Origin: Scilla litardierei
Lineage: Eukaryota > Streptophyta > Magnoliopsida > Asparagales > Asparagaceae
Length of the DNA stretch: 64,000 bases
Direction: 5' to 3'
NCBI GenBank assembly: GCA_030789695.1
Contig: CM061138.1
Coordinates: forward strand, 181,699,051 to 181,763,050
Shown here in pieces: positions 7,356 through 48,406 of the stretch. Made by a program: the position numbers and the translations under genes. Position 1 is the first letter of the stretch. Every line of letters begins with the position of its first letter. The notes beneath the pieces were generated by a model. The model was not told the origin of the DNA. It was given only the letters and a program-made list of their open reading frames with translations, and did not search any database.

Positions 7356-7420
7356 GATAGAGGAGGGAGAGAGAGAAAAACGTTTCAATTAAAGCTCCAA
7401 CGGCTCTTTTCTGAACCTAA

Positions 7421-8083: not shown

Positions 8084-8487
8084 ACATGCACAAGAAGTCG
8101 CGAATCGAAGCGCGAAGCTTCGGGAAGGATTGTATGGACTTCTACTAAGATCCTAGATCTAAGATATGAGCGTTATGAAGATTTAGACCGTAAGACCTAC
8201 TCAAGGCTTAACATTCTACGAAAGAAGCTTAAAGACTACAAATAAAACTTGACGATACCGTCTTCAATAGCTTCAATCGAATCTTCATGACTTCTAAAAT
8301 GGTCCATAAGCTTCAACGAAGCTTTAGGCATACGATCACGTGCTTTGAGAAGTCTTGAGACGTCGTAATTGATATTCATATGAATTTGGCGACGATCTCC
8401 ATAACTGCGCTCACAAAGTGTTAGTACACGTTATATTTATGTTTGTTCATCATCCAAAACCAAATCCGGGGAGTCCAATATCCAACA

Positions 8488-8502
8488 TTCTCCCCCTTTT
8501 TG
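8488..8502 (-). other. Polypurine tract adjoining the 3' LTR
   Basis: The minus strand reads AAAAAGGGGGAGAA directly before the LTR's TGTTGG. Three further GGGGGAG tracts follow at about 8562, 8725 and 8806. Confidence 0.85.
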
Positions 8503-11187: not shown

Positions 11188-11505
11188 ATCTACGAAACCC
11201 TAGATGGTCGGAACCCTAGCAAACCCTAGGTTGAAATTAATAGAAACCCTAACCCTAGAGTTGAAAACTGAACCCTAGACAGGAGAGGGAGAGAGGGGGG
11301 TTACCCTAGGTTGGAGGTCGACGGCCGGCGACGGAGAGGATGGCCGGAAATGGGCCGGAGATCGACGGAAGACGAAAAGACACGAGGGAGGTTCGGGGGT
11401 TTTCGAGCTGGAGAAAAGATGGAGACCGACTAAAATGAAAAAGAATCGGTTAGATAATATTTAAGTCGGTCGAAATCGCGAAAAGACATGACTGCCCCTG
11501 AGCAC
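11188..11505 (-). promoter_or_regulatory. Leader-like region before the accessory ORF
   Basis: On the minus strand this reads as a typical plant 5' leader, with C/T-rich stretches and repeated CTAGGGTTT motifs ending at the ORF start. A weak TATA-like TTAAATATT lies at about 11455, directly after the palindromic array. It suggests a separate promoter for the accessory ORF. In the second copy the TATA-like site has a mutation. Confidence 0.4.
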
Positions 11506-11809
11506 TTAGTCGGTCACAGTTCAATGGCTGACCGACTAGATTACGATCTAGTCAGTCGGTTAACGAGCTTAAACCGACTAAGTGGAAACAGAGACCAGTC
11601 GAAGATTTCCTGAACGAGAATTAGTCGGTCTTCGCTCAAATACTGACCGGCTAGAACTCAATCTAGTCGGTCGATAAGTAAGCCTGAACCGACTAAAGAG
11701 TTAAGCTGGAGAGGAAACTCAAAATAGCTTGAGTTAGTCGGTCTGAGTTCATTAGCTGACCGACTAGATGTGAATCTAGTCGGTTGGTTGATGAACTGAG
11801 ACCGACTAG
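11506..11809. repeat. Internal palindromic array upstream of the accessory ORF
   Basis: Three more double-hairpin units of the same CTAGTCGGTC/GACCGACTAG type as in the LTR, here between pol and the accessory ORF. From 11810 to 12050 the sequence is AT-rich, with no gene. Confidence 0.9.
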
Positions 11810-17494: not shown

Positions 17495-17496
17495 AA

Positions 17497-19371
17497 TGTA
17501 ATGCCCTACAAGCTACTGCACAAGTACTAGAGGGGGGTGAATAGTACTTTAAAAATAACGATGAGTATAATTCCTAATTATCGTGCAAACAACTACCAAA
17601 TCAATTTGCGGAAGCTTAAATTGAAGACAACAACAAAAATAACAATGCTAACAATAGATATTACTGGGTTCGGATCCACCCAAGTCTCCCCGACTTGTTC
17701 CCGGTGATCCTACATCCCAACCACCCGGATCCCCTCCGGATACTTGAGTTAGAAACCCTAACTCAAGATTTTCACTATGAAATACTTGTGAAAAACCTTC
17801 ACAAGTCAAATCATACACAAAGTAATTTGTGACTCCCACAACCCGGGATCACAACCACACTCTCACAACCGAGAGTGAAACTTACAATATGAAATTGAAA
17901 TGAAATAAGAAACTTCTTACCGACAAAATACCTATGCCTTGAGTAATGCTTACGAATTAGGGCAAGGATGATTTTGAGGAAGAAGAAGTGGCACCAAACC
18001 CTAGCTCCAAGATGTAGATCAGCGATGAAGAGCTATGGGGATGTTGGTGACCTAAAATCAAGCACTTGGCTTGTAAGGCTTCACACTCAATGAATCTCTC
18101 TTTGGAAGTAAGAGTGAGGAGAGATTATTGAATGGAATGAAAGAGCTTTGAATGAGCTTGGAATGATTTCTCTTGATCTCTAAACTTGCAATAATATCAG
18201 CCTTGACTGCAATGAATGCATTCCAACAAGTATTTATAGGATAGAGGAGGGAGAGAGAGAAAAACATTTCAATTAAAGCTCCAACGGCTCTTTTCTGAAC
18301 CCAACTAGTCGGTCAAAGAACAACCACCGACCGACTAGTTCATCAACTAGTCGGTCGGTCAATTAACGTATACCGACTAATGAGTGAACAGAGAAAAGAT
18401 CGAAACACAGACATAAGGAACTAGTCGGTCCAAGAAGAGTAGCTGACCGACTAGTTTCACGACTAGTCGGTCGGTTACTCAACTGAGACCGACTAACAGA
18501 TAAAACTGAAGTCTGAGCATAAATAGACTTAGTCGGTCCAAGAACAAATGTTGACCGACTAATTCACCAACTAGTCGGTCGCCAAATGAGCATAGACCGA
18601 CTAACGATAAACAGTAAGTTAGGTGAAAAATTGGCATGTACAGTAAAGGTAAACTAGTCGGTCCAAGAAGGAAAGTTGACCGACTAGTTCATCAACTAGT
18701 CGGTCGATCAATGAACACAGACCGACTAATGATAAACAGTAGCTCAGGCTCAAATGTGCATGTACAGGGAAAGCTCAACTAGTCGGTCACAGAAGCATCA
18801 CTGACCGACTAATTCACAAACTAGTCGGCCGGTGAGTCAACTTAGACCGACTAACTGTAAACAGTAAAGAGCTTAGAATTAACTGACAGAAACTAGTCGG
18901 TCCAAGAAGCTTTGCCGACCGACTAGATCACCATCTAGTCGGTCAGTTCTTCTTCTTGAACCAACTAACATGCACAAGAAGTCGCGAATCGAAGCGCAAA
19001 GCTTCGGGAAGGATTGTATGGACTTCTACTAAGATCCTAGATCTAAGATATGAGCGTTATGAAGATTTAGACCGTAAGACCTACTCAAGGCTTAACATTC
19101 TACGAAAGAAGCTTAAAGACTATAAATAAAACTTGACGATACCGTCTTCAATAGCTTCAATCGAATCTTCATGACTTCTAAAATGGTCCATAAGCTTCAA
19201 CGAAGCTTTAGGCATACGATCACGTGCTTTGAGAAGTCTTGAGACGTCGTAATTGATATTCATATGAATTTGGTGACGATCTCCATAAGTGCGCTCACAA
19301 AGTGTTAGTACACGTTATATTTATGTTTGTTCATCATCCAAAACCAAATCCGGGGAGTCCAATATCCAACA
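17497..19371 (-). repeat. 5' LTR of the copia element, shared with a second copy
   Basis: The partner of the 6614-8487 LTR (1,875 bp), ending at the primer site. Its outer end is followed by a polypurine tract and the accessory ORF of another copy, so it also serves as that copy's 3' LTR. Its palindromic array lies at about 18305-18967 and its TATA box at about 18231-18239. Confidence 0.9.
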
Positions 19372-22300
19372 TTCTCCCCCTTTTTGGTGATGACAAACCA
19401 ACATAAATAATAATCAAAAATAATAATTCAAATGAAATTTACTTACTCCCCCTGCATTGATGACACGTTAATTCCAATTAAAACAATAATAATACGCATC
19501 AAGGAGACGAGTGAAGTATATAAAATGAGAATCGATTATTGAAATATCGAATACCAAATGTAGGTTATTGAAATATCGGATTTGAAAATCCATTTATATA
19601 TCTTAACTCCCCCTGAATCTAACATATCAAGTTAGATTTTTGGAATAATGCTTTAAATTTTCATTTAGCACATCGTTATTATTATATCTCTCCCCCTTTG
19701 GCATAAGCAAAAAGAGCGGGAGGATAACAACGACAACAACAATGGCCTCAAATTAAAAAGCACGGGAGTCGTAGAATACGACGACGGTTCAAGTGACACC
19801 AAAGATAAACTACGAATAAAATTAAGGTGTGTCAATGAAACCATAGTCGAAAATCGTAAAACGAAGTCATCAAAACTCAAATCATTTTTACGGATTGAGT
19901 TATGGAATAAACTCTCCAGTATCAACATTCTTGGTTAATTTAGTGCATGGAAAACAATTCTATGTTTCCATAGAAGAAATTTCTATTAAACCAAGTTAAT
20001 ATCGTCGAGCGACGAAATCAAACATCAAAGACATAAAAGAAATTATAAATTGTGCACAATTGAATGAAATGTCAACTGCGATGTAGATATATAAAAGATA
20101 TGAACCAGAGTACATCAAATATAAACATCACTGACATACAAAACATCGATCCACCGATCGGTGCACAAAATACATCATCATATCACACAGATATCGGAGT
20201 GTCGCAGAACATACAACATCATTAAGGTACATCAAAATACATCATCAAAAGTATCAAAATACATCAAAAATACATCATCAAAAAGATCCAAAACCCCACT
20301 CTATCCTAACCAAACTCTCTCACACTAGATGTATCATCCAAGGAGAATCGGAGAGTCCTCAAAGAAGCTCAAGAGGAACCGGCAGGATCTGCAGCAGCAG
20401 GCTCTGCAGGAGAAGTGGTGGAAACTGGATCAGCAGGAACGTCTGGAAGGTCAACGGGAGCAACAGCAGAAGTGGCAATCTCTGGAGCAGCAACAGTAGT
20501 GGCCTCGGGAGCACCAGTCGAAGTATCCACCGCAGGAGCGGTGGCAACAGGTGTGCTCTCGGGGGCACCAGCAGACGAAGCAGCAACAGCAGCACCAGAA
20601 GTGGTAGCACCAGCAGCAGATGTGGTAGCAGCAGCAGCAGTGGCCTCAGCGCCACGAGCTAAAGAGGTGACAAGCTCATCGATATCCTCATCATCCATCT
20701 CCTCATCCTCAGAAACAGGAGGAGGAAGCTGAATACCCATCAGACTAGCCATACGGCAAACTACCTCCTCGGTACGAGCCAAACGAGACTCGTGACGACG
20801 AAGTAACCGAAGACATCATCAAGAGTGGTAGAGGGAGCAGCTGGGGCAGAGGCAGAGGCAGACGCTGAAGGTGTCGTCCTCTGAACGTGACGGAGCATCG
20901 CAAGAGATTTCTTGACGGCCGTCGCGTTCAGGGGAGGACCAAGTGGACGCTCATCGTCAGGAGGCAATGTGACACGGAAGTGGCGAAAAACAAGGGTCAA
21001 CAAGCACGGAAAGGGGATATGAGCCGATTTCGTGGACTTGAGAATACACTCGAAAGAGTCCATCTTATCGAGTATAATGCGAGCCCAGTTAATCGAGCTC
21101 CCCATGAAAATAGCATAAATCAGCTTCAAGAAGGGCTGGGACGGTAGAGATGAGGATCCGTACTTTGGAAGCAAGCACGACTTCAGAATCAGATTCAGGA
21201 CCCATGCATTTGGCTTGAAGGATTTGGAGGGCACGCCAATCATGGCGGGAGGAATCTGATGGAAAATCTCAGAGAGGATGGTCTGATCAAGGGAAGAAAT
21301 ATCATCAACAGAAATGTCTGAGGGGAGGAGGCCAGACGAGGAGATACCCAAAATCTCTCCTAAGATTTCTGCTGTGAGGACTATAGGAGTCCCCAAAACA
21401 GTCGTCTCAACAGAGTGGGTCGCATCGTACTGACCCCGGATCCTATTGGCATAGAATAGTTTAACTAAACGAGGGTAGGGGTGAGTATTCGCCTTCGGGT
21501 CATATCGAAGGTAATCGAGAAGACCCGAGGACGAAAGAAGATCAGCTAGCCCTATGAAGTCACTAAACTGGACGAAATGCTCCAGAAGCAGCGGGCAATG
21601 TTCGATACAGTTGTAAGCCGCGAGACACATAGGGTCGTCGCGACACAACGAGATATCGACACCGCCAACTGGCATCGGAGCCTTTCCCTTAGGCTTACGG
21701 GTAGACGTACGAGGTCGGGAGCTAGACTCAGGATGGGTAGGAGGAGTGGGTTCCCTATGAGTCTCAGTCTCGGAAAAGTACTCGGTGTCGGAATCCGAAG
21801 CACCGGGTGGAGTGGGAGCACGAAAAATAACTGGCTTGGGCTTGGGCTGAGATCGGGCTCGGGGTTTCGCAGTCGCCGTCCTCTTACGCTTAAGAGGAGG
21901 CGAAGACGAAGAGGGTTGGGTGGTTTTCGAACGACGTCTAGGAGGGGTTCTCGAAGGTTGAACGGGATCCGTAGGGTTAGGTTCTACGGTCATCAGCGAG
22001 GGGCTAGATGGAGTGATCGGGATACGTGTACGAGCCATAATCGAGGCACGACACGACGCAAGAAAGATCAAATCTACGAAACCCTAGATGGCCGGAACCC
22101 TAGCAAACCCTAGGTTGAAATTAATAGAAACACTAACCCTAGAGTTGAAAACTGAACCCTAGACAGGAGAGGGAGAGAGGGGGGTTACCCTAGGTTGGAG
22201 GTCGACGGCCGGCGACGGAGAGGATGGCCGGAAATGGGCCGGAGATCGACGGAAGACGAAAAGACACGAGGGAGGTTCGGGGGTTTTCGAGCTGGAGAAA

Positions 22301-22430
22301 AGATGGAGACCGACTAAAATGAAAAAGAATCGATTAGATAAGATTTAAGTCGGTCGAAATCGTGAAAAGACATGACTGCCCCTGAGCACTTAGTCGGTCA
22401 CAGTTCAATGGCTGACCAACTAGATTACGA
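19372..22430 (-). mobile_element. Truncated second copy of the same copia element
   Basis: From the LTR outward it repeats 8488-11546 at about 99% identity: polypurine tracts, spacer, accessory ORF, leader and the first part of the internal palindromic array. It breaks off at 22430 inside the array. The LTR-internal-LTR-partial internal order indicates recombination between LTRs of two elements. Confidence 0.85.
20369..22071 (-). pseudogene. Second copy of the accessory ORF
   Basis: Near-identical to 9485-11187, with the same two frames (22071-20761 and 20782-20369) and the same frame change. There are only a handful of amino-acid differences, mostly in the low-complexity N-terminus. A leader with CTAGGGTTT motifs precedes it. 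Confidence 0.7.
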
Positions 22431-23968
22431 TAACGTACGTTATACACTTATACCCAACATAGTCAGTCAAATTCATGCACGTATTTTAATCTTATATATA
22501 AGCATACATCCCTTATATAACTACTACTTACCTAATCACAAATCAATATTTCAGATACTCATATAAGGATGGTCTCACACTTAGCAAATACAATCATTGC
22601 TCTACGTATAGATAGCTACCTATGCACAAACAACATGGGTATACAACTCCCTAATATTTCCTAGTGCACATCCAACCAACACATCAACTCATGTGGTCAC
22701 ACCACACCATTATTAATCAAGCTTCACTATATCTAATATACATTCACCCCTACTACAGTTTCACAATATATAGTCATTCAAATACATGCAAATAGTTCAC
22801 CATATATTCACATCACGTACGGTCCTATAACTGTATTTACGACACGCCACATATATTATAGTCACCAATAACTATAACTAAGCACATACTTACCCGTGCA
22901 TGGTGCACACCCATACACGCTAACATTTCATTTACATACACCAATCATACCATTATATATCCAGTACATCTGCACACATAGTTTAGCTAGCACACATACG
23001 TTCACACAGGCAAGTCCTTAGTAATTAACTATACCACAAGACCAACTCCTATAACTATATACTGGTGTAGCGACCCACAATCATGTGTGTAACACAACCA
23101 GGCACAAACACTCCTATCACTATACATACATCAACATTGCTATATTCAACTACAAACATACATTCAATATACTTAGAGTATACCCACTCAAGCTTGAGTG
23201 AGACTCAATACACATATCAGACTATTCTATATACGTAACACGGCATTCATACCTATACCAATACCACTCCAATATTTATACGTCTACCAATACAACCATA
23301 TACATACCTTAAGTCAATCACACTTAATATTTAGTCAGGTAATACTCACATAGTTCAATCACTCTATATACCATAATAATAATACAGACATCAGCACACG
23401 TATAATTATAATACACTCCTTAATACATACGCATTCATCGTATAGTCACACACATGTAACATATATATTCACACCCTAGCCTACTACCTCTAATTAGTAT
23501 ACTAACACATCTATACGTACACAATCAAGATGTGCAATAGTCGTGTATACCTCACGGTATGCACGCATGCAACATCCCGTAAGAGCAAGCAATACCAATC
23601 AAAATTATAATCCTACTACCATATGTATACCTCCTATATACTCATGCAACAAAACATAACTACTTACGTCTAAGCACAATACATACCTACATACGAGCAC
23701 ATACACATACGTACTAACTCATGGGTCATATAATAGGCCTACTTACTTATCTATATGTACACCTATTATCATCACACCTATCAAACACGTAGCTTTACCA
23801 ATCATTTTATTTCAACCATTACAAGTATCTCTAATTACATACACCCCATTAGATATTCCACCACTAACTCTTGTATACACAGGTATCCCCAGTATGGTAT
23901 AGCTAACCACACTCAAATCTATAAATACTAACACACAAACAACTTCATAATATCACGAATAACTCCGA

Positions 23969-27749: not shown

Positions 27750-30664
27750 TGTCACGCCCCGCTTCCCAAAAATGTGGAGGCAAAGCGTGAGAAGGTCCGC
27801 TCAGACTTGAAGCTGCAAAGCTGCAAGTCCGATAAGCGTCAATCAAATTTAAAACTGCAGGTCCTTGCAACGCGAACGAAACAAAGATAATAATAATGAA
27901 ATGAGACAAAAGAGATATCTCAGAATATCCATAAAATAAGTTTCAACATCACAGAAAAAGCCACCAGGCTAAAAGAAAAGGAGTCTAAAGGCCCACACAT
28001 GGCCAACGAAAAGTACAACGTACAAAACAAAGGTGCCACGCACCGACAACTAACAACAAAACCTAAAACAAAAGAAAACTCAGCAAGTCACTAAGAAAGG
28101 TCACCGATGTCCACAAAGCTCCTCCTGGGCAGACATGGACTCAGGCTCAGCGTCAGCAAAACATCACGTACTCAGCAGCGGTCTCTAGCTCAGGGTCTAA
28201 CATGTGACACCCAAAAGAGCAAGGGGCACATGTCAGCAAGTCTACCAGAGACTTGTGCAAGGAAACTGAAAGTAAAGCAACCTAGCAGTTCTAGCATGAT
28301 GCAATGACATGGCAGTTAAAGTATGAGTGCAGCAGGTAAGGAAAAACAACAAGTAAACTAGCATGGCATGGCAAGTGTGGCAAGACTATAAACATTTACA
28401 AGGGTTTCTCTAGTCACGTTTTCATGTCATGTGCAGAGTTTACGCCTTACAGCTGAAATAGCTTACTTTCACACTGAGTGGCCGCTTAACTCCGCCCCAA
28501 ACCCAGAGTTTACGCCTTACAGCTGTAGTTGCTGATCAGGCAGACTCCCAGTTGATTGGCCGCTTAACTCTTACCCCTCCCACATGTATCGATCCAGGGC
28601 CTTACCCCCGACGGTAATGTTCGCTTCTGGATCACGAGCCAGGAAGTGTTTTTTCATGATGGCATAGGGGTTCACCTAGCCCTGGACAAGCAAGTACAAG
28701 TATGTAGCGTGTGCTACGAATGCAATATTCAATGCATGGATGACATGGCATGGCAAGTAGTAAAGCGTACAGGTTAGGAAAGTAAACATGACAGTTTAGT
28801 ATGCATGATTAACAAGTTTAAAGAGTTGGATCTAGCTTCGTTGTCAAGCTAGATCAATTAAGGTGACGGATCTAGTTTCGTTGTCAAACTAGATCAAGTA
28901 GGCGTCTAGCCAGCTATCATTTCACTGACTAGTCTCTTTTACGCTAAAAACAAGGAAGTGGCCTAAAAACATGGCCCTACACAAGAGTTGGCAAGTTTCA
29001 CTTGCCTGCAAGTACAACGTCTGAGAAACACCGTCCAAGAGAGTCCAAGTCACAAATAACCTACGTGCACAAGTCCACCGGCCTAAAGTCCATATTATTA
29101 ATCTTGATTAGTGAATTTAAAACATTTAAAATACTTTTAAAACATCAATTTTAGTCTTGATTAACAGGCAATAGGTTGGGGGTCCTAGGGGCAAAGCGTT
29201 ACCTCAACACGACGCGAAAGCTACACTGGCGTCGGGTAGCGACGCCAGGGGTTGGAATAAAAGAACACGCTCCAAGTCCTGATTCCAATATAGGTCCCTC
29301 GCTGGAAAGTTCAGAGCATCAACTGGAGCAACGGTTCCAGATTCCAAAGCTAGCACGTGCGACGACGGGCTACGACGTGTCGCAACGTCGTACGTGACAA
29401 TTCCTCGAAGGGCAAGCACCTAGGTGGGGCCCACAGTAGTCCTAGGGACCTATGGGGGTCCCACAATACCTCTGGAGAACTTGGGGGGCCCACGGTGGCA
29501 AGTGGTGGGACGGGTACGGGGTTGCGACGTTTGGCTCTCGGTCGTACAGCCTCGGTGCGGGGGATTCCATCGGTCGGTGCGAGGGAACGAGGCTTGTGCA
29601 GCGCTTGGTCGGTCGCAGTGCGACGGGGGCTTGGTTCTCTCGGTCGGAGCGGGGGAGGCCATCGGTTGGCGCCTTGGATGCGGGGGCTTGGGCGCTGCAC
29701 CGTTGCAACCGTTGCAACGTTGCGGAGAGCGGGCGATGCGGGCGAGAGCATCGGTCGGGCACGGAGCAGTGCGGAGTGACAGAGCGGGGAATTGCAGCGG
29801 TGCGGGTGCGGAGCGGAGCGGGGAATTCCCTCGGTCTGACCGAGAGATTCTCTCGGTCGGACACGGGGATGCGAGCGGGGCGATGCAGAGCGGCTGTGCG
29901 AAGCTTGGTGCGAGCGGGGCAGCGGTCGGTGCGGGGAAAATGGGCATGTTTCTTCAGTCGGTGCGGGGCTTCTTCGTCGCAACGTTGCGACGATTCGTCG
30001 CAACGTCAAATTTGGGTTTTGGAAGCGGCTAGGGTTATTTTCTTGCGAAAATAGGTCTTCCTAGGGGTTGTTTATATAGTGTAGATGGGTTGACTAGGTC
30101 TAGGGCTAATCCTAATGGGATTAGGAGTTTGAAATAATTTAAAATCCAAATCTCACCAACTCCAACTCACCCAAGGCCTAGGTGGGGCCCAAATGAGCTG
30201 GAAATTGGCTCAAAAATTATTTAAAACGTTTTAAACTCAAATAAATTTTCCTTGGCCGAAATTAATTTAAAAATTAATTATTAAAAATATTATAAACCTT
30301 GTTAAAAATATAAAAGTGGTCAAATAAACTCCAAAAATTATAAAATAAATATCGGGGTGACCGTGATGACGAAAGTAGGCTAACTAAGAAGAAGGATCAC
30401 AATTTCGACGTCGGACGACGAAACTAAAAATAGAAACGTCTCCCGTCAAAAGTGAAAATCACAACGTCTCTTCGAGTAAGATTAAATTGTGGGAAAACGA
30501 ATCGAGAAACGTCGTTCCAAAATAGTGCCACTATTTAATACTCTCAGAGACGTTCACAACGGCATATCACAACAAAGTGTTCACAAACAAATAGAGTCTA
30601 AAAAAACACGTGCACGGCCAAAAGCACGTGCATGAACAACGTATAACGAAAAGTGGTCGTTACA
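27750..30664 (-). repeat. Gypsy LTR, minus strand (2,915 bp)
   Basis: It runs from TGTCACGCC to GTCGTTACA on the plus strand. A TATA box lies at 30071-30079 (minus). The transcribed part holds the conserved hairpin set (28704-28717, 28829-28855, 28869-28895, 28906-28932, 28990-29006). The LTR is related to that of the element at 33966-47169 in its 3' half, but its U3 lacks the TAGTCGGTC array. A G/C-rich segment at 29350-30030 has CGTTGCAACG palindromes. It interrupts an older LTR: the undisturbed relative at 47780 reads GGAAGAGGAGGG, and AAGAG follows at 30665. Confidence 0.8.
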
Positions 30665-31291
30665 AAGAGGAGGGTGCACGTGAAGCCTAGGAACTTAACA
30701 TAATATGGTTAAAATAGGGTGGAGGACAGCCTGGGCTTGTTTGGGTTACACCTATTGATATTGTAGAATAGTCAAAGGGAGAGGGAGAAGTGATGTGAGG
30801 GAGAAATCATGGGGAGATGTATAAGGGTTGTTAGGATTCGTTGGGATAGACATCAGGTAGGTTAGAAATTTTTAACAGATTAGATTTTATTAATAATAAA
30901 AAAAGATTTGATTTAATGGGCCACGCTTTGATTTCCAACCTTATCATTATTTAGAAAGATCTGCTAATTAATATTGGTTGGAAATTAAGGTAGTTAATAA
31001 TTATTTAATTAATTTCTTTTTTTTATTTATAACGTACAGATCCTTCAAACTCAATAATAATAATAATAAAATTGTTTTAATGATTAAAAATGATTTTAGC
31101 AGATTGGTCTCCCGACGCCCAAAAATTACAAGGAAAATACCGAGGCGCTCGCGCCTCTGAGAGGATTGTGAAAGCGGTGTTCGATCGCGCATTCGAGCTA
31201 TGGAGAGCACTAATAAAAATCAAAATATGGGAACATGCACACGAAACAGAGATACGCGCTATAATGCAAACGATCGGAAAGCGACCGTTAC
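30665..31291 (-). repeat. Fragment of an older minus-strand LTR (5' start)
   Basis: Near-identical to 47780-48406 (about 620 bp). Its right end, CGACCGTTACA, is the LTR start in minus orientation. Its left part was displaced by insertion of the 27750-30664 LTR. Confidence 0.75.
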
Positions 31292-31977
31292 ATTCTACCC
31301 ACCTTAGAAATGATTCCACCCTCGGAATCACTTATACTAATAACAATAATATCTATATACCCTTATACCCGCAACTCTCATATTCCACATAATGATCGCT
31401 AAACCTACAACTTCAACCAGCGTTCCGCAACAATTCATCATTACTCGTCTTTTCACTGGATAACGCTACGACTAAACTCACACCCTAACACTTAACTATA
31501 GACCCATCACTCCCGTTCCAATTTCCAACACCAAGTTCTCATAAAATTATAATCATCTTCTCATACCATACTACTCCACTAAACATCATCGCTCAATAAC
31601 ATTTTTAAATTTCCCAATCTCTTCCCAATATTAATCAATCGCTAAAATGATGTTCTAGCCAATCACCAATCTAAGACAAAAACTTTGTCTATCTTATAAT
31701 ACCTTTCCCAAATCAACAATCGCCTTGTCCTCCATATATGCTTCGTCATATCGTCCACAAATTTATCCGTCAAAAATTGAACTATCAAAATCTCATCTTA
31801 TCCTTACTCACTATAACTAATCCCAACCAATATTAAATCCGCCAACCTAACCATCCATTCATCTCAACACGTCATGTTATTCCCAATGTCTTCTCACGTC
31901 AACTTAATAATCATGTCTTGATGCTTCAAATGTTCTACTCATTCTCATGATTACCCAAACTCATACTATACCCTTTC
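31292..31977. other. Gene-free stretch
   Basis: A/C/T-rich, no ORF, no repeat recognised. It lies between two minus-strand LTR fragments and may be decayed retrotransposon sequence. Confidence 0.5.
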
Positions 31978-33965
31978 GTAGTCGTAGCGTGTGCTACCAA
32001 CCACGGGACTAACCTAACAGGTGTCAAGACAAATCGGGACATGGCGGGACAAGACAAGACAAGTGTGACACGAAAGGGTTCACGCCTTACGGTTCGAGGG
32101 GGATCAGACCCTCTTACCGTGCGCACGCTCAACCCTACCCCAAACCCAAGTATTCAAGACGTGGCAAGACAAGGGATCACTCGCTCTAGCTTGGCGAGTG
32201 CCCTATTACCCTCTGGGCTGTGTAACAAGACAAGGGATCACTCAGAGAGTGCCCTATTGCCCTCTGGGCTGTGTAACAAGACAAGGGATCACTCGGAGAG
32301 TGCCCTATTGCCATATGGGTTGTGTAACAAGACAAGGGATCACTCGGAGAGTGCCCTATTGCCCTCTGGGCTGTGCAAGACGGGACGTGACGTGACAAGA
32401 TAGGAAAGGTTATTCTAGGGTGTCCACACGCACGCACGCACAATATAGTCCTACGATGTCAAAAGTTGTTGTTGTCGGGCTCAGACTTCATCGTCAAGTC
32501 TGAGCCGTCAAGGGACGTCCCGGACGCTATCATTTCACGTCCGGTTCTCTTTGTTCACAGTTAACAGTTCTAACAAACTAAGGCCTAAAGCATGGCCAAA
32601 AGTGCAAGTGGATACACTTGCCTGCGGTGGCGAGTGTGTCGTCTGTCCGGGTCGTCTCGTCCAGTCGTCTCGTCCGCGGTAGTCCATCTGAAAAGGGGTC
32701 ACGGCGACGGTGTCAGGTCGCGATTTTCAATAAACCTATTTAGGTTTTGTTTCTAGGTTGTCGGGACTACCCTAATCGTCAAAGTCACAATTTTGATGTT
32801 TTATCAACCTAAATCGACCACTACCCTATGTGCACAGAAAATTGTCTGATGGTCGATTTTCTACAGTGACAACATTTTACTGGTGTGAAAACGTAAATTT
32901 AATTGTAGTTGTCTAGTTTTAGTTAGGTTTTCGGTTTCGCTACGGTGGGGGTTGTGCTACGAGTTAGGGGAACCAACCTCTCCGGCGTTTGACGCAGAAT
33001 GGACATAGAGTCTGAACGTTGACAGATCTGAACGGCATGGCAACGAAACATCTCCTTACGGCAACGGTAGATTTACGGCAATGAAGGCGAGGAGGGGCAG
33101 CGAGGGAAGGTGAAACAGCGAGCAAGGGCAGATCTGCGAGCGAGGGGCGTCGTCAAAGGCGCCCAACGGCTACGGAAAGAGCAGACAGCGAAGATGAGCC
33201 CGGTAGCGGTCCGTCTGTTTTTGATGATTCTGGGTGACCAGGTAATTGCAACGGGGGCACCGCATAACTGCGTTATTAAATTTGTAACATTAAGCTAAAA
33301 GAATCCTTAACTTAATAAAATATTTTCAAGCTTACTTATAATAATGTATTATACTCTTAATATATAAACTGCTAACATGCATTTTAATATAACTGACATA
33401 TGATACCACTATCATTATGACTGCGATAAAATATTATAAATAAACTAACTGTAGGTTATAACAAATGTACGTCATACAACTTTTGTATAATTGTACGTAA
33501 TATAAAATTACGTACACATATAAAATAACAAATAGCAAATGCATTATTCTGCCTCAACCACCAAGTTTATGTTCATAAAGGATGTCACTGTTCATTTGCA
33601 TGTGAACTCCAAATAGTATGCATTAGATTACACTGTTATAAAATAGGTATTGTTCGTTAATTCATTTCCATATTTCCTAACACTATACAACTTTTACACC
33701 CATACTCGGTTCCTTTCTTTTAACAACATATTGATATAAAATAATATGGTGCACCGCAGATATTACTAACTATGTAAATGTATAAATTAGCCGTTGTTAT
33801 CTAATAACAACTTACGCGTTCAGTACTTTGCATCACCTTAGCAGGCGATGGCAGCGATGGTTCGAAGACGCCGCAGTGGTGGTCCGGCCTACGGGTCTCT
33901 TCATTGGCGGTGGAAAGATGGCGACGAGAGTTCCTGACGTCAATGTCGAAAGCGTGGAGGGTCTC
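31978..33965 (-). repeat. Old minus-strand LTR, left half
   Basis: It resembles the reverse complement of the solo LTR at 39576-42859. Shared landmarks are GTAGCGTGTGCTAC (31984-31997), hairpins at 32478-32506, 32520-32544 and 32604-32621, and the region around 32700-33000. It continues at 47175 on the other side of the large gypsy element. A 590-bp AT-rich segment (about 33241-33830, no gene) interrupts it. The outer 3' end is missing. Confidence 0.65.
32190..32395. repeat. 51-bp tandem repeat, four copies, inside the LTR
   Basis: Units share GTAACAAGACAAGGGATCAC. The equivalent place in the solo LTR (41823-42050) has four 56-bp units with a different core but the same AGTGATCCC and GTTACAC ends. 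Confidence 0.9.
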
Positions 33966-34233
33966 TGTAACGACTGGTTTTCATGTATCTGGATTTATTA
34001 TATTATATTATATGTTTTGGTGGATTTTCTCCTCATGTGTGGTTTTCGTCCCCGTAGCTTTCATTTTCGATCGTTTCGTCGTATTTTCTTAGCTTCTTCC
34101 GTTGATCGTCGATTTCGGAGTAAGTCCTTCGTGACGGGCTTCATATCGGTCATATCTTATTGTTAGATCAAGCCTAGGAGTCTTAGGAATCGATCCCGGA
34201 GCTTCGCACTCCATTTCGGGACTTTTTGTGCAC

Positions 34234-34766
34234 ATTAGCCGGTGTAAGAAGGGGCACCGACCGACTAGATGATGATCCAATCGGTCAGAAAACCTTCTTG
34301 AACCGACTGGTTGGCTTTGTAAATTATTCAGGAGTTACTGTTTATCGTTAGTCGGTCTAAAAACATTGGTCCACTGACTAGGTTGCAAACTAGTCAGTCA
34401 GCAATCGTTCTTTAACCGTCTAGCTCTATGATCATTTTTGATACCAAGTACTATTCATTCTTAGTCGGTCTAAGAACGTTCATCGACCGACTAGATTCGA
34501 AACTAGTCGGTCAGTAGTTGTTCTTTGACCGACTAAATCTAAATCCTATTTTTGTACAGGAGTTACTGTTTGGACTTAGTCGGTCTGCGTTGGTCAACCG
34601 ACCGACTAGTTCCCAAACTAGTCGGTCAGTGGTTGCTCTTTGACCGACTAATTCATTTCCCAGATTTTTTCCTAATTTCGCTGCTTGGTGTTAGTCGGTC
34701 ACAGCTAATCGACCGACCGACTAGTTGCCAAACTAGTCGGTCAGCCAACCTTCTTTGACCGACTAA
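34234..34766. repeat. Palindromic array in gypsy LTR U3 (five double-hairpin units)
   Basis: Each unit is TTAGTCGGTC, about 14 nt, GACCGACTAG, about 7 nt, CTAGTCGGTC, about 14 nt, GACCGACTAA. This is the same design as in the copia LTR, including the spacer words TCTAAGAAC and GTTGTTCTTTGA. The 34-nt segment 34503-34536 (reverse complement) matches copia 7421-7454 at 31 positions. The first two units are the most decayed. The array ends about 45 bp before the TATA box. Confidence 0.95.
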
Positions 34767-34810
34767 ACAGTACAGGAAACCCTAGTTTTGCCCTAGCCGC
34801 CACCAAACTC

Positions 34811-34818
34811 TATAAATA
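34811..34818 (+). promoter_or_regulatory. TATA box of the gypsy LTR
   Basis: TATAAATA followed by a C/T-rich start region. The 3' LTR has the same site near 45471. Confidence 0.8.
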
Positions 34819-35272
34819 CCCCTCCAAACATTTTCTTCTTCTTCTTCAACTCTAAACCTAATTTCTCCCCCATTGAGCCCCCTACTACCTCAAACCATTA
34901 TTCCTTCATCCCAAGCCCAAAATCCATCATCCAAACCCTCACTTAACACATTCTACCTCTCATCTTCCTCAAATTTTCATCAAACCCCCAAAATCCCCCA
35001 AAAACCCCATTTCTCCAAACTTCTCCATCCATTTCCAGATCTGAACCCTAGGTTCCCCGGAGCGTTTCTTCTGTTGCCGTGCTTGCTCGGCATCATTCTT
35101 CTACTTCCGATACGGTAATAATCGATCTCTTAATGTTTTCATGACCTGTTGTGTTTTTGTGAAACCCTAATGAAATGAATGTTGTTTTGATGATTGTTTC
35201 TCCATAACAGCGACTTCCCCGTAGATTAGCGTCCGTGAGACGAACCCTCGTTGATCGTCATCCTCGGTGCTA

Positions 35273-35687
35273 GGCAAGTGAAACTTGCCACTTAGGGTTT
35301 GGGCCATGTCTTAGGCCATTTGCTTATTGTAGGCGTAAAAGAGACTAGGCGACGAAATGATACTCGCCTAGGCGCAATTTCGGGAACTAGCTTGACAATG
35401 AAGCTAGGACCGCCATGTATCATGTTGCATAACTATCATGTCATGTTTAATTTTGATTAACGGTGCGCGAATTAATTGTCATCCATGCTATCCATGCTGT
35501 ATGTCGCATTCGTAGCACACGCTACAATACTTGTGTTTCCTGGCCCGTGTTCCAGAAACGGGCTACGTGAGTTGGTTGATAGCCAATGCCCGATCCACTT
35601 GCTTACCGGCTAGGCACCTGCGTTGCAGGCATAACCCTACGCCATACTTGTTAAATACACTTCCTGGCTCGTGTTCCAGAAGCGAGC
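35273..35687 (+). ncRNA. Conserved hairpin chain in the LTR leader (candidate structured RNA)
   Basis: Six stem-loops in order. HP0 GGCAAGT/ACTTGCC (35273-35289). HP1 CTAGGCGA/TCGCCTAG around loop GAAATGATA (35345-35371). HP2 CTAGC/GCTAG around TTGACAATGAA (35387-35407). HP3 GTAGC/GCTAC (35512-35525). HP4 GCCCGT/ACGGGC around TTCCAGA (35543-35563). HP5 GCTCG/CGAGC around TGTTCCAGAAG (35667-35687). HP0-HP3 recur in order in three other LTR families here, with altered but still paired stems and unchanged loops. The chain starts about 460 nt downstream of the TATA box, so it is transcribed. Its role is unknown; packaging, dimerisation or translation control are guesses. Confidence 0.6.
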
Positions 35688-36515
35688 ATTTCGTGTTCGG
35701 GGTAATTCCCTGGCTCAATACACGTGGAGGGGTAGAGATAAACGGTCACTTGAGCTTAGGAGTTGGCCCGATCAGCCACTCTAGCCAACAGGCGGAATCT
35801 CTGTGCACAACTTGTTTTATTGACTTGTTCACTTGACGTGAACCACTTGACTTGTACTTGTCCGTGTTCTACTTTTTATCCATGACATACTTGCTACTTG
35901 TACTTCCCTTTACTTGTCACTTCCATACTATACTTGCCATGACATGCATCATACTATAACTGCTAGGTTGCTAGTTTACCTTACCTTCAGTTTCCTTGCC
36001 CAAGTCTTTTAGACTTGCTGACATGTGCCCCTTTAGTCTTTTGGGTGACACATGTTAGATCCCGAGCCTGAGTCTGTTGTTGAGGATGAGGTGTTTGCGG
36101 ACGTCGTGCCCGAGTCTGTGTTTGGCGAGGAGTACGTGGACACTGGGGACCAGTCCTAGTGTCTTCGTTGAGCTTTACCTTTTTGTTTAGACTGCTGTTT
36201 TGTTGTCGGTGCGTCTCACCTATACTTGGTTACGTTGTTCCTTTTATTGGCCTTGTTCTGGGCCTTTAGACTCTTTTTTTTAGCCTGGTGGCTTTTCTGG
36301 ATGTCGAACTTAATTTTCTTGTTGGACCTTTTATGAGATTTGAGATTTTATTTCTGTCTCTCCATGTGTTATCATTATTGTTCCGTTTGTGGTTACAGGG
36401 ACCTTCTTATGTTTTATTGACGCTTATCGGGTTTGGGGCATCACAGCTCCACTCTCGTGCGAACCTTCTCACGTCTCGTCTCCATTTTAGGGAAGCGGGG
36501 CGTGACAGGTTTTGT

Positions 36516-36534
36516 TGGTGGCCCATGCAGGTCC
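36516..36534 (+). other. Primer-binding site matching tRNA-Ile
   Basis: TGGTGGCCCATGCAGGTCC, 8 nt after the LTR end. It is complementary to the 3' end of plant tRNA-Ile(AAU) as I recall it (...CCTGCATGGGCCA plus CCA). Confidence 0.65.
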
Positions 36535-36650
36535 CTTCTGTAACTGTGATTATCGAAATAGCGATAATAATATTAGAATGTCCAATAAACTAAGTTCGAC
36601 GTCCGAGTCATAAGCTATGAGTCTAATTGTTTCGTTTTCTGTGACATTAG

Positions 36651-39575: not shown

Positions 39576-42500
39576 TGTAACGGCCGCTTTCCGACCGTTC
39601 GTATTTTTTCCTGCGTGCACGTGCTTTATCGTGCACGTATTTTATTTGGTTGTTTCTGAGCTCCGGCATATGCAATGTGATATGCCATTGCGATCGTTTC
39701 GGGGTGTTGGATTTTATTGTAATTTTTGGGAACGTCGTTGGACGGCTCGTTTTCTCGCAAAACGACTTTGAACGATAGGGGCGTTTTAGTCATTTGACTC
39801 AAAACGCCGTTTCCAATTTTACGTAAATTCTTGGTAGGCATTACGCATGATCGGACACCGTAGCCCCGTACTTCTTGTCTCCACGATCGTCCCGGTATTT
39901 TCGGAATATTTTTCTGATGCCCGTAGTGGAAGATATCCCCTAATCAATTTCAACTGTTGATTAGCCTCTAATCAAATCCAAAATTCTGTTGCTAATCAAA
40001 TCTCATGGGATTAGTACGTATCATGAGATTTGATTCTGCCACTACCCTCACCAATACTTCCCCACTTTGTACACCTCCTCACTCACCCTCTCTCCTAGTC
40101 ACCCCTAAACTATACCCCTCTTTAAAATACCTATAGCAATTCATCTCTTCTAAAACCCAACCATGGCTGAAATTTAAACCTCATGCAAACCCAACTTTGG
40201 CCGCCCACTACTCCTCCTCCGGCCACCCACGGCTGCCCCTAGCCCCCCTAGGTCGTCCACCAGGTCCCCCACCTCCTTCTCCTCCCTCTCCTCCTCCCAA
40301 AGAGCCTCAAAACTCCATGAAAACCACACAAAACACAGCCCGGGCCAGAACTGCGCCCCGTCGGAAAACACCGCCGGCCGGCCACCTCCGGCCACCCCCT
40401 CCGGCGAACACCACCCCCGATCAACTCCTCTCTGACCCCCCAAGCATCTCCACCTCCTCTTACCCTCTTCCCTCATCTCTATCTCCCTCAAAACGCTTTC
40501 AAACACACCCCAAACGATAGTTTTACAGATCTGTGCCACCGCCGGAAAAACTCACGCCCACTGGCCATCCGGCCACCTACAATGACCACCCTATCGCCCT
40601 TGGATTCCTATCAAAACCACCTACCAACTGCAATTTTCCTCACGCTCATAGCCTACCTGTAGCTCCCGGAATCCTCGTCGGAACACGTCGCATCCGCTGT
40701 TTTTCACAGATCTGGAAGCTGAACTTCGCCATCCGCGCATGGCCACCTCCGACCACCCCCTGCGACAACTCCACTGCCGTTGGCTTCGTCTTGAAGTCCT
40801 TTACCCACTGCAAATTTCAGTTTCCACTGTTCGTCTCTGAAATTTCACTGAGACGCGCGACAACGGACGTGGCGCGAATCTGTCCTCCCCGGCTTCTCAC
40901 GGCCGCCCACCGCCATGCGCTCGCGCCGTCGGTCATCCACCGGGCCGAGCATCTTCCTTTGGTCCCACTTCATCTACCAACAGCCCCCTTGGACTCTCGG
41001 AGTTCACGTGCGTTTCCGCACGCACGTACTTTTAGCCGACGTCGCCGTTATCGTGAAGAACCGTTGCGCTACTCGCAACGGGAAGGAGATCACTGATTAG
41101 CTCGTTATTTCATGTCACCACCCCGTTATCCAGAGGTACCTCGTTGTGCTACCCGCGACCGAGGAGTTCCAGACGACGCCGACGTTGCGTCGTTCAGACC
41201 CGACTTCCGCTTGTTGGACGACATTACGAGGTTAGTTTCCCCTAACTCATAGCACAACCCACACCATAGCAGAACTGAAAACCTAACTAAAATCGGCAAC
41301 TTAACTCATTAAATTTATTTTCTGCTCCCTTAAAACGATGTGGAACCGTAGATCGACGAATGGACTATTTGACTGTGCACATAGGATAGAATCGTCGAAT
41401 AGGGTTGAACATCAAAATGTGACTTCTGACGAATAGGATAGTCCCGATAACCTAGAAACGAACCCTAATATGACTTGATGAAATTGCGACCTGACATCGT
41501 CGCCGTGACACTGTTTCAGACGGACTACCGCGGACGCGACGACTGGACAAGACGCCCCGGACGGACGACACACTCGCCATCGCAGGCAAGTGTACCCACT
41601 TGCGCTTTTGACCGTGTCTTAGTCTTAAATTGTGGAACTGTTAGACTGTGAGTGCTGAGAACCGGACATGAAATGATAGCGTTTGGGACGCCCTTGATGG
41701 CTCAGACTTGACGACGAAGTCTGAGCCTGACAACAACAACTGTTGACATCATAGGACTATCTTGCGTGTGCGTGCGTGTGGACACCCTGGAATAACAACT
41801 CCCTACACTTGTCATGTCGTGTCCTGTTACACAAAAAGCCTTCGGGCGTTTCGGATGCTTTTCCCCGCGGAAGTGATCCCTGTTACACAAAAAGCCTTCG
41901 GGCGTTTCGGATGCTTTCCCCCGCGGAAGTGATCCCTGTTACACAAAAAGCCTTCGGGCGTTTCGGATGCTTTCCCCCGCGGAAGTGATCCCTGTTACAC
42001 AAAAAGCCTTCGGGCGTTTCGGATGTTTCCCTAGCGGAAATGATCCCTGTAAATCTTGTCCCGAGTTCCTGGGGTTGGGGTTGGGTTGAGCGTGTGCACG
42101 GTAAGAGGGTCTGATCCCCCTCGAACCGTAAGGCGTGAACCCTTTCGTGTCTCACTTGTCTTGTCTTGTCTTGTCCCGTCCCGTCCCGACTTGTCTTGAC
42201 ACCTGTAGGTTAGTCCCGTAGTTGGTAGCGCACGCTACGACTACTACCTGTCCCGTTTTACTTTCCTGCTGTGTTACTTCCTGTTGTGTTACTCTGTTAT
42301 AATCACAGCATGCTAATCAACCAGTAAACTGTTGTGAAATAGAACCTCAGCATGCTAATCAACCAGTAAATCGTTGTTTAAAGTTCGGTGCACTTGCAGT
42401 AAAGTCTAACCCTTCTTGTAGACTTTACCTGACGTACAGTTCCTTTCTCTTGGGTGCTGTACGTCAGGTGTTCAGCCAGAGTTCGTGGACGAGGCAGACT

Positions 42501-42859
42501 CACTGGAGTACGAGGAGCCGAGGACATCGACCCAGAGTACGTGCTTGACAAGGACCAGACCTTGAGGTCTTTTAGTCGTCACTTTCAGAGGTTACTACTT
42601 TCAGTTTACTTTTAGATAGTTTGTTGCCACGCTTAGGCTTCTTTTTAGACTTTGTACTTGTTGGATATTATATCTCTAATTTAATGAATGCATCTTCCTT
42701 TCCGTACTTTCTGTTGTTACGAACTTTATTAATGCAAGAACCTAAAACTTTTAAAATGATACCCCTACAGACGCTTATTGGGTCCGAGCTCTTTAGCTCC
42801 GGCCTAAGCGGGCCTTAGTCACGCTTCGCCTCCGTCGTTTTGGGAAGTGGGGCGTGACA
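39576..42859 (+). repeat. Nested solo LTR of another gypsy family (3,284 bp)
   Basis: It runs TGTAACGGCC to GGGGCGTGACA, flanked by the 5-bp duplication ACAGT (39571-39575 and 42860-42864). No internal region is present, so it is a solo LTR left by LTR-LTR recombination. It carries the conserved hairpins at 41586-41603, 41662-41686, 41699-41727 and 42225-42238. The C-rich middle (40190-41100) has frames of 107 and 187 codons that I regard as non-coding leader sequence. Confidence 0.95.
41823..42050. repeat. 56-bp tandem repeat, four copies, in the solo LTR
   Basis: Units begin CCTGTTACACAAAAAGCCTT and contain CGGGCGTTTCGGATG. They lie between conserved hairpins HP2 and HP3. Confidence 0.95.
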
Positions 42860-44624: not shown

Positions 44625-47169
44625 TGTAACGACTGGTTTTCATGTATCTGGATTTATTATATTATATTATATGTTTTGGTGGATTTTCTCCTCATGTGTG
44701 GTTTTCGTCCCCGTAGCTTTCATTTTCGATCGTTTCGTCATATTTTCTTAGCTTCTTCCGTTGATCGTCGATTTCGGAGTAAGTCCTTCGTGACGGGCTT
44801 CATATCGGTCATATCTTATTGTTAGATCAAGCCTAGGAGTCTTAGGAATCGATCCCGGAGCTTCGCACTCCATTTCGGGACTTTTTGTGCACATTAGTCG
44901 GTGTAAGAAGGGGCACCGACCGACTAGATGACGATCCAGTCGGTCGGAAAACCTTCTTGAACCGACTAGTTGGCTTTGTAAATTATTCAGGAGTTACTGA
45001 TTATCGTTAGTCGGTCTAAGAACATTGGTCGACCGACTAGGTTGCAAACTAGTCGGTCAGCAATCGTTCTTTAACCGACTAGCTCTATGATCATTTTTGA
45101 TACCAAGTACTATTCATTCTTAGTCGGTCTAAGAACGTTCATCGACCGACTAGATTCGAAACTAGTCGGTCAGTAGTTGTTCTTTGACCGACTAAATCTA
45201 AATCCTATTTTTGTACAGGAGTTACTGTTTGGACTTAGTCGGTCTGCATTGGTCAACCGACCGACTAGTTCCCAAACTAGTCGGTCAGTGGTTGCTCTTT
45301 GACCGACTAATTCATTACCCAGATTTTTTCCTAATTTCGCTGCTTGGTGTTAGTCGGTCATAGCTAATCGACCGACCGACTAGTTGCTAAACTAGTCGGT
45401 CAGCCAACCTTCTTTGACCGACTAAACAGTACAGGAAACCCTAGGTTTGCCCTAGCCGCCACCAAACTCTATAAATACCCCTCCAAACGTTTTCTTCTTC
45501 TTCTTCTTCAACTCTAAACCTAATTTCTCCCCCATTGAGCCCCCTACTACCTCAAACCCTTATTCCTTCATCCCAAGCCCAAAATCCATCATCCAAACCC
45601 TCACTTAACACATTCTACCTCTCATCTTCCTCAAATTTTCATCAAACCCCCAAAATCCCCCAAAAACCCCATTTCTCCAAACTTCTCCATCCATTTCCAG
45701 ATCTAAACCCTAGGTTTCCCGGAGCGTTTCTTCCGTTGCCGTGCTTGCTCGGCATCATTCTTCCACTTCCGATACGGTAAAAATCGATCTCTTAATGTTT
45801 TCATGACCCGTTGTGTTTTTGTGATACCCTAATGAAATGAATGTTGTTTTGATGATTGTTTCTCCATAACAGCGACTTCCCCGTAGATTAGCGTCCGTGA
45901 GACGAACCCTCGTTGATCGTCATCCTCGGTGATAGGCAAGTGAAACTTGCCACTTAGGGTTAGGGACATGTCTTAGGCCATTTGCTTATTGTAGGCGTAA
46001 AAGAGACTAGGCGACGAAATGATACTCGCCTAGGCGCAATTTCTGGAACTAGCTTGACAACGAAGCTAGGACCGCCATTTATCATGTTGCATAACTATCA
46101 TGTCATGTTTAATTTTGATTAACGGTACGCGAATTAATTATCATCCATGCTATCCATGCTGTATGTCGCATTCGTAGCACACGCTACAATACTTGTGTTT
46201 CCTAGCCCGTGTTCCAGAAGTGGGCTACGTGAGTTGGTTGATAGCCAATGCCCGATCCACTTGCTTACCAGCTAGGCACCTGCGTTGCAGGCATAACCCT
46301 ACGCCATACTTGTTAAATACACTTCCTGGCTCGTGTTCCAGAAGCGAGCATTCCGTGTTCGGGATAATTCCCTGGCTCGATACACGTGGAGGGGTAGAGA
46401 TAAACGGTCACTTGAGCTTAGGAGTTGGCCCAATCAACCACTCTAGCCAACAGGTGGAATCTCTGTGCACAACTTGTTTTCTTGACTTGTTCACTTGACG
46501 TGAACCACTTGACTTGTACTTGTCCGTGTTCTACTTGTTATCCATGACATACTTGCTACGTGTACTTCCCTTTACTTGTCACTTCCATACTATACTTGCC
46601 ATGCCATGCATCATACTATAACTGCTAGGTTGCTAGTTTACCTTACCTTCAGTTTCCTTGCCCAAGTCTTTTAGACTTGCTGACATGTGCCCCTTTACTC
46701 TTTTGGGTGACACATGTTAGATCCCGAGCCTGAGTCCGTTGTTGAGGACGAGGAGTTTACGGACGCCGTGCCCGAGTCTGTGTTTGGCGAGGAGTACGTG
46801 GACACTGGGGACCAGTCCTAGTGTCTTCGTTGAGCTTTCCCTTTTTGTTTAGACTGCTGTTTTGTTGTCGGTGCGTAGCACCTATACTTGGTTACGTTGT
46901 TCCTTTTGTTGGCCTTGTTCTGGGCATTTAGACTCTTTCTTTTAGCCTGGTGGCTTTTCTGGATGTCGAACTTAATTTTCTTGTTGGACCTTTTATGAGA
47001 TTTGAGATTTTATTTCTGTCTCTCCATGTGTTATCATTGTTGTTCCGTTTGTGGTTACAGGGACCTGCTTAAGTTTTATTGACGCTTATCGGGTTTGGGG
47101 CATCACAGCTCCACTCTCGTGCGGACTTTCTAACGTCTCGTCTCCATTTTAGGGAAGCGGGGCGTGACA
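44625..47169 (+). repeat. 3' LTR of the gypsy element (2,545 bp)
   Basis: Partner of 33966-36507. Palindromic array at about 44894-45424, TATA near 45471, upstream ORF 45535-45780, hairpin chain from about 45934. The array here is less decayed than in the 5' LTR. Confidence 0.95.
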
Positions 47170-48406
47170 GTCTCGCTGGGGGTTGCGGGCTGGGAGAGGG
47201 ACGGCAGGCCGCTGGAGGGAGAGAGAGGCGGAGCGACAGCAACTGGCCGTGCGGGTGGCTGGCTGATCATCGGATGGCTGCCATGGCGGACTGTAGGGGC
47301 GAGGAGGAGGCTCCGAGGGCGGAGGGGAGGCTCCGACGTCGGGATCCGACGAAGTGAATGGCAGCAACCCAAGGGAACATGGGGAGCGTGGCTGGAGTTG
47401 GGCACCACCGAAGGTTGCTGCGGTTCCTGGCAGCGAGGGGAAGACATGGCGGTGGCGCGGGTCGGCCTGAGGGGAGATAAGGCAGGGAGAAGACGACTGG
47501 GGTTACGGTGGTGGCGTGCGGTGGACAGAGGTGATCAACGGGGAGGGCGACAGGGCTGTGCGGTGCGGTTGGCGTGAAGGTATGGATGAGGCAAGGCGAC
47601 GTACGGGCTGGAGGTCGATAAGGCCAGAGGTGGGTCTGGCCGGTGTCATGCTCGGCGGCTGAGATGGAATAAAGCCCGGACATGAGGGGGAAACTCGCCA
47701 GGTAGAGGTTTGCCGCAAGTTAGAGGGAGAAGAGCACGTGAAAAAAAGAAAAGGCTTGGAGCTAGGGTTGTGTTTTCAAAGAGGAAGAGGAGGGTGCACG
47801 TGAAGCCTAGGAACTTAACATAATAGGGTTAAAATAGGGTGGAGGACAGCCTGGGCTTGTTTGGGTTACACCTATAGATATTGTAGAATAGTCAAAGGGA
47901 GAGGGAGAAGTGATGTGAGGGAGAAATCATGGGGAGATGTATAAGGGTTGTTAGGATTCGTTGGGATAGACATCGGGTAGGTAAGAAATTTTTAATAGAT
48001 TAGATTTTATTAAATATAAAAAAAAGATTTGATTTAATGGCCACGATTTGATTTCCAACCTTATCATTATTTAGATTGCTAATTAATATTGGTTGGAATT
48101 TAAGGTAGTTAATAATTATTTAATTATTTTCTTTTTTTTATATAACATACAGATCCTTCAAACTCAATAATAATAATAATAATTGTTTTAATGATTAAAA
48201 ATGATTTTAGCAGATTGGTCTCCCGACGCCCAAAAATTACAAGGAAAATACCGAGGCGCTCGCGCCTCTGAGAGGATTGTGAAAGCGGTGTTCGATTGCG
48301 CGTTCAAGCTATGGAGAGCACTAATAAAAATCAAAATATGGGAACACGCACACGAAACAGAGGTACGCGCTATAATGCAAACGATCGGAAAGCGGCCGTT
48401 ACAAAA
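47170..48406 (-). repeat. Old minus-strand LTR, right half
   Basis: Continues the LTR interrupted at 33965 (GTCTC is present on both sides). It ends GCGGCCGTTACA at 48406, the LTR start in minus orientation. 47780-48406 is near-identical to 30665-31291. 47175-47760 is G-rich with only shadow ORFs. 48407-48564 is AT-rich with a TA run and no gene. Confidence 0.7.

Follow-up and report, generated by a model that had tools for sequence, protein, structure and literature searches.

Hairpins with near-invariant loops and covarying stems in long terminal repeats of Ty3/gypsy elements of Scilla litardierei

In long terminal repeats (LTRs) of Ty3/gypsy elements of Scilla litardierei lies a chain of hairpins that stand in a set order, with conserved loops and with paired changes in their stems. 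The likeliest role of this chain would be packaging or Gag recognition. The account preferred here, tentatively and at somewhat under an even chance, is that a chromovirus-like Ty3/gypsy genomic RNA carries the chain as a conserved RNA domain of its LTR-derived leader, and that Gag reads the loops and packages that RNA. Structured leaders of LTR elements are already known; within Rfam and the open-access literature searched, this chain is new.

The window and its elements

The window, by which is meant the whole stretch of 64,000 nucleotides analysed, contains a nest of Ty3/gypsy LTRs and comes from a 3.68-Gb genome made up of 7266 contigs. The chain stands in it five times, with two copies in LTR family A, one in family B and two in family C; the original prediction had counted four LTR types, a figure to be corrected to three families, the two C copies being 81% alike over 615 aligned bases. 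Element A is bounded by a 5' LTR at 33966-36507 and a 3' LTR at 44625-47169 (both plus strand, 97.3% identical), with TG..CA ends and a 5-bp target duplication, GTCTC, at 33961-33965 and 47170-47174. Its gag, protease, reverse transcriptase, RNase H and integrase follow in Ty3 order, in gag, protease-reverse transcriptase and integrase frames, the last with SH3_Tf2-1, and pol is split by a solo LTR of family C (39576-42859, plus strand, ACAGT on both sides). The solo LTR is similar to a partial C LTR at 31978-32980 (minus strand; the extent is that of the aligned part). At the integrase end a candidate chromodomain gives a Chromo match below the cut-off (E 0.0022, 18.3 bits, cut-off 25.1). The elements are chromovirus-like, probably of a Tekay/Del-like kind. 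The family B LTR lies on the minus strand at 27750-29700, where 27750 is the LTR end and 29700 a provisional upstream limit, and carries its chain at 28829-29006.

By eye, no initiator-tRNA primer site was found after A's 5' LTR at 36508-36560. Directly after the LTR stands GGTTTTGTTGGTGGCCCATGCAGGTCC, identical in A (36508-36534, plus strand) and B (after 27750, minus strand), kept although the LTRs of A and B are only ~74% alike, and unlike the usual initiator-tRNA primer site. Self-priming of A was rejected as a candidate: Watson-Crick complementarity between the sequence after the LTR and the leader as assumed reaches 8 bases at most.

Several other repeats occupy the window. Tandem palindromic TAGTCGGTC/GACCGACTA arrays at 34223-34771 and 44882-45430 (plus strand) and at 7419-8180 and 18303-19064 (minus strand) lie upstream of the TATA box in A and in a Ty1/copia-type element (RVT_2) that is otherwise seemingly unrelated. 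Repeats of 4.9 kb, 98.7% identical (6613-11547 and 17496-22431), surround a Ty1/copia-type polyprotein, and both contain a Transposase_32 frame. The stretches 30665-31292 and 47785-48403 are 95% identical; on the minus strand the former starts with TGTAACGGTCGC, which resembles another LTR start, and has no chain match. Within the C LTRs, between HP2 and HP5, tandem 51- and 56-base repeats with small palindromes of their own lie at 31978-32378 and 41823-42050, with units that differ between the two copies.

Hairpins and covariation in the window

In the 5' LTR of A (plus strand) the chain opens with HP0 (35273-35289, GGCAAGT/ACTTGCC) and HP0b (35302-35317, GGCC/GGCC, loop ATGTCTTA) and continues with HP1 (35345-35371, loop GAAATGATA) and HP2 (35383-35411, core 35387-35407, loop TTGACAATGAA). 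HP3 (35512-35525, GTAGCACACGCTAC), two copies of HP4 (35543-35563, GCCCGT/ACGGGC, and 35667-35687, GCTCG/CGAGC) and the HP5 domain (35735-35801) follow. In A's 3' LTR, HP1 and HP2 lie at 46007-46033 and 46045-46073 (plus strand). On the minus strand, B has HP0 at 28990-29006, HP1 at 28906-28932 (CTAGTCAG/CTGGCTAG) and HP2 twice, at 28869-28895 (GATCTAGT/ACTAGATC) and 28829-28855 (GATCTAGC/GCTAGATC), the two copies differing by a paired change from T-A to C-G adjoining the loop. The solo LTR of C (plus strand) has HP1 at 41662-41686 (CCGGAC/GTTTGG), HP2 at 41699-41727 (GGCTCAGAC/GTCTGAGCC), HP5 at 42083-42142 and HP3 at 42225-42238; the partial C LTR (minus strand) has HP1 at 32520-32544 (CCGGACG/CGTCCGG) and HP2, with the same GGCTCAGAC/GTCTGAGCC stem, at 32478-32506. 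The stems and loops of HP1 and HP2 were thus found at the coordinates originally claimed for them. The HP1 loop GAAATGATA occurs eight times in the window, five times in the chain and three times elsewhere (48924, 50201, 62629), whereas shuffled windows contain it 1.10 times on average and reach eight in 0 of 100 cases; TTGACRAYGAA occurs exactly six times, every time in the chain.

Across the five window copies, 11 of the 20 HP1 and HP2 pairs show changes on both sides with pairing held, as against 0-2 for slid partners, and 90% of the cells of these 20 pairs are paired (slid partners, 17-49%), with a covariation score of 0.615 for HP1 and HP2 together. Letter shuffles reach the 11 both-sided pairs in 1 of 500 trials; the pair-type count is not exceptional and, because 383 of 500 letter shuffles reach it, is uninformative in these five copies. 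Given no structure, RNAalifold returns exactly the HP1 and HP2 helices, and does so again in a 414-column alignment. When the HP0-HP2 columns are shuffled and the best helix anywhere is kept (1000 trials), the six compensatory pairs that HP1 has in one helix are never reached and the four of HP2 are reached once. Between A and C, 16-17 of 40 stem sites are identical, as against 14-15 of 16 loop sites. Dinucleotide shuffles that fold as well as the five copies number 0, 0, 0, 1 and 0 of 200, and the covariance model gives these copies, the same five that trained it, 82.7-91.4 bits.

Beyond the hairpins originally claimed, the chain includes HP0b, a lower stem below HP1 in the A and B types, HP4 (twice in A) and the HP5 domain. 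In the genome rows inspected, HP0 and HP0b can be made out upstream, in some rows decayed (for example L209), and HP0b has the paired variants GACC..GGTC (L241, L242) and GACT..AGTT (L254). In the A and B types HP1 sits on a 4-bp lower stem (in A, 35333-35375, plus strand, GCGT/GCGC) with an 8-base purine bulge, AAAAGAGA in 21 of 33. This stem pairs in 128 of 132 cells, a figure that re-dealt arms equal in 230 of 2000 trials because the arms are so uniform, and it has no counterpart in the C types, where 12 of 72 cells pair. HP3 is present in all five window copies, as claimed; the claimed position does not hold throughout, since in C it lies 91-95 bases past the HP5 anchor and not beside HP2. 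The HP3 stem is identical throughout the five window copies, with no covariation, and a regular expression matched it in 15 of the 32 copies that offered sufficient sequence. HP4, which a search with its loop word located in 11 of 32 copies, might alternatively be folded as a pseudoknot. The HP5 anchor was found in 22 of 32 copies, and its outer stems read GAGAT/ATCTC in A, GAGTT/AACTC in B and GGGTT/AACCC in C. HP4 and HP5 are to be regarded as leads, because their registers were placed manually and C's HP5 arm was misaligned by MAFFT.

Copies across the genome

In the whole 3.68-Gb genome, exact matches to the two-loop pattern number 63,710 (31,964 plus and 31,746 minus), as against 0 for the reversed pattern. 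The first 100 matches all fall within the initial 7.2 Mb of contig C1. A partner on the same strand lies 6.0-7.9 kb away from 65 of them, and one on the opposite strand 5-9 kb away from 4, as LTR pairs would give. Fifty loci from this one genome were analysed, comprising the 30 initial matches and 20 picked for variety among the 100; together with the window copies they make 55 matches, 51 of them distinct, and the 45-copy alignment drops L210, L219, L228, L231, L235 and L238, which are close to rows that were kept. In that alignment both-sided changes occur at 17 of 20 pairs and in 191 cells (slid partners, 2-7 pairs and 5-22 cells), and 90.5% of cells are paired (slid partners, 17.7-45.4%). 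Of 500 letter shuffles, 8 attain the 17 pairs, 95 the number of pair types and none the other three measures. RNAalifold again returns both helices, with 14 pairs, 12 of which have compensatory cells. Fully paired 7-bp stems make up 12 of the 27 distinct HP1 stems and 10 of the 24 distinct HP2 stems, and a single HP1 pair occurs as G-C 19 times, as C-G 18 times and as A-T 11 times. Among distinct stems the paired fraction is 0.905 for HP1 and 0.899 for HP2, and re-dealt 3' arms attain at most 0.751 and 0.815 in 2000 trials. On a tree of flanking sequence, at least 38 Watson-Crick replacements fall over 17 of 18 pairs, a number that is only approximate because the tree was built on a short stretch, up to 100 bases upstream. 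With the covariance model, 50 of 50 genome loci, picked through both loop words, score at least 58.3 bits.

Given the many tandem repeats in these LTRs and the duplication of HP2 and HP4 in some copies, the chain might be thought a functionless by-product of duplicated palindromes. The covariation of HP1 and HP2, seen under the column-shuffle null, with re-dealt arms, in the 45-copy alignment and on the flank tree, speaks against this, and the idea is very improbable for the chain; it is unlikely for HP1 and HP2 in particular, while HP3 and HP4, which have no independent support, may still be such by-products.

Candidates from outside the genome were rejected. In viral contigs the two-loop pattern was matched by 51 stretches, none of them with two good stems, and a second pattern by 37; the covariance model found three matches in these 88 viral loci, at most at 16.1 bits. 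That they score so low indicates that, where ancestry is not shared, the loop words come without the stems. The 14-base HP3 word was found in at least 120 viral-contig stretches, as chance would lead one to expect for such a word. A reverse transcriptase pattern gave 11 matches in viral contigs with no relative among them, the bacterial and archaeal genome contigs gave 0 matches, and a search for Gag homologues gave two proteins, without genomic context.

Loop constancy and its proposed reader

Because the first genome sample was selected by loop words, it is uninformative on loop constancy. A pattern on HP0, HP0b and HP2 that leaves the HP1 loop free has 29,442 plus and 29,420 minus matches in the genome. 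Among 30 loci found in this way, many of which overlap the first sample, the HP1 loop is GAAATGATA in 23 (5 of them counted by word in the sequence, automated hairpin placement being off there) and differs by one base in 7, comprising GAAAGGATA in two copies, on a new and fully paired stem, and five single cases. The loop had been called invariant; near-invariant is hence the better term. When the A-type HP1 stem is fixed and the loop left free, there are 9644 plus and 9677 minus matches, with the exact loop in 92 of the 100 listed, a sample that is a weak guide to selection as it lies within one family. For HP2, loop constancy outside the window was measured only in samples picked by that loop.

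Near-fixed loops on exchangeable stems are the trace expected of a protein that reads loops, and Gag is the natural candidate because every subfamily that uses particles must keep such a signal. The working form would then be RNA and the reading protein the element's own Gag. HP0, HP0b, HP1 and HP2 would display their near-fixed loops (GAAAUGAUA and GACRAYG) on stems in which the helix counts and the sequence does not, and the Gag of the element would select and package its genomic RNA through those loops, a psi-like role. Several conserved hairpins, as expected of a psi-type signal, are present. If the Gag proteins of different subfamilies, or particles that they share, read one signal, this would account for the loops being the same in all of them. 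Whether HP0-HP0b-HP1-HP2 forms a single psi signal common to many chromovirus subfamilies, read by Gag and kept alike by cross-packaging while its stems drift in pairs, is more doubtful, and we regard this wider proposal as possible but not probable.

Predicted position in the leader and the form under selection

In element A the order is TATA box, chain and gag, with the TATA box TATAAATA at 34811-34818 (plus strand), upstream of the chain and ~460 bases before HP0. With the chain so placed and ahead of gag, genomic RNA should carry it. The original prediction assigned the chain to the leader as lying downstream of a TATA box, which fits element A; across copies the argument weakens, for of 32 copies 21 have a TATAWAW in the 1400 bases upstream and 11 have none.

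The main rival to packaging is that the chain decides what becomes of unspliced RNA, acting in nuclear export or in the regulation of splicing, and we consider it improbable though the strongest of the alternatives. Intron-like, AT-richer stretches lie just upstream of the chain in A, C and, by eye, B: the candidate introns, all with GT and AG ends and all read by eye, span 35115-35210 in A (69% AT), 41231-41519 in C (59% AT) and about 29037-29205 in B (minus strand, AT-richer). Likewise, an AG stands immediately 5' of HP0 in most genome copies inspected. The RNA transport elements of mouse IAP and MusD resemble the chain in being structured RNA of LTR elements and serve export; PMC12786077 calls it unclear if export motifs exist in plant elements. 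Against export or splicing control, these splice sites are only candidates, and the candidate intron is kept in five of five window LTRs, so that packaged RNA would need to escape that splicing. A further alternative is that the chain helps ribosomes to gag by internal entry or by shunting across a long leader. A has 30 ATGs from its assumed start (34838) up to gag (36651); splicing could remove these instead, and the chain lies more than 1 kb from gag. This role in translation ranks last among the three functional alternatives and is decidedly unlikely.

Between these two in rank stands the possibility that selection acts on DNA, either as a cruciform or as an either-strand site for transcription, chromatin or integration, which we hold to be unlikely and only slightly less so than a role in translation. 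The original prediction took the paired changes as a signature of RNA structure. The changes themselves hold in the larger alignment; the attribution to RNA is less firm, since G-U and A-C deviations are about equal (18 to 14 in HP1 and 6 to 5 in HP2, or 11 to 13 and 5 to 5 when each distinct stem is counted once), and these counts show no strand preference in the genome and window copies. Similarly, the antisense strands of the five window copies fold almost as well as the sense strands, with 0-2 of 200 dinucleotide shuffles matching them. A level count would be seen either with a sense-RNA signal hidden by the decay of old copies on both strands or with a function in DNA, and equal counts are also what one would expect if most copies are dead and so decaying. 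Free stem letters combined with constrained loops would, in addition, be unusual for double-stranded binding sites.

Relation to known systems

At gathering score, Rfam 15 (4227 families) has no match in the chain, and its sole match in the whole window is snoR71, a plant C/D snoRNA, at 59154-59259 (42.8 bits). A permissive Rfam search had no match in 35200-35900 and gave one weak antisense snoR121 in 28400-33000 (20.9 bits, cut-off 50); 41-42.3 kb and A's 3' LTR were searched at gathering score only. In the open-access literature searched, no title or abstract describes such a chain. Retrozymes are plant retroelements that have a hammerhead-ribozyme RNA motif in their LTRs and are thus, like the chain, a case of structured RNA in plant LTRs; in contrast to them, the chain has no match to the hammerhead core in the LTR stretches searched with Rfam.

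A functional parallel to the proposed packaging by Gag is offered by the retroviral psi leaders of MMTV, MPMV and HIV-1, in which, as in the chain, several hairpins follow one another ahead of gag. The chain differs in that its loop sequences are other ones, a long LTR encloses it, and no dimerisation palindromes were seen in the loops of HP1 and HP2. For MMTV and MPMV, PMC8096270 and PMC7674771 indicate that unpaired purine-rich stretches matter for packaging. Other LTR retrotransposons offer further parallels. In barley BARE (Ty1/copia), conserved signals are said in PMC3735527 to serve dimerisation and packaging; BARE, like the chain, concerns signals of a plant LTR retrotransposon, and belongs to another superfamily. 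Yeast Ty1 has, according to PMC5454406, a kissing-loop structure in its leader that is used in dimerisation and packaging, again a leader RNA structure of an LTR retrotransposon, in this case of another superfamily and host.

Implications

Little is known about the way in which plant LTR retrotransposons pick out their genomic RNA. With more than 60,000 exact matches in one genome and without an Rfam match, the chain is a defined candidate for such a signal, open to bench experiments. Its structure can also serve to locate LTRs that have diverged in sequence. If the wider proposal of one signal shared by many subfamilies and read by Gag is true, the chain would be a psi system of plant Ty3/gypsy elements, with the same loops kept over tens of thousands of copies.
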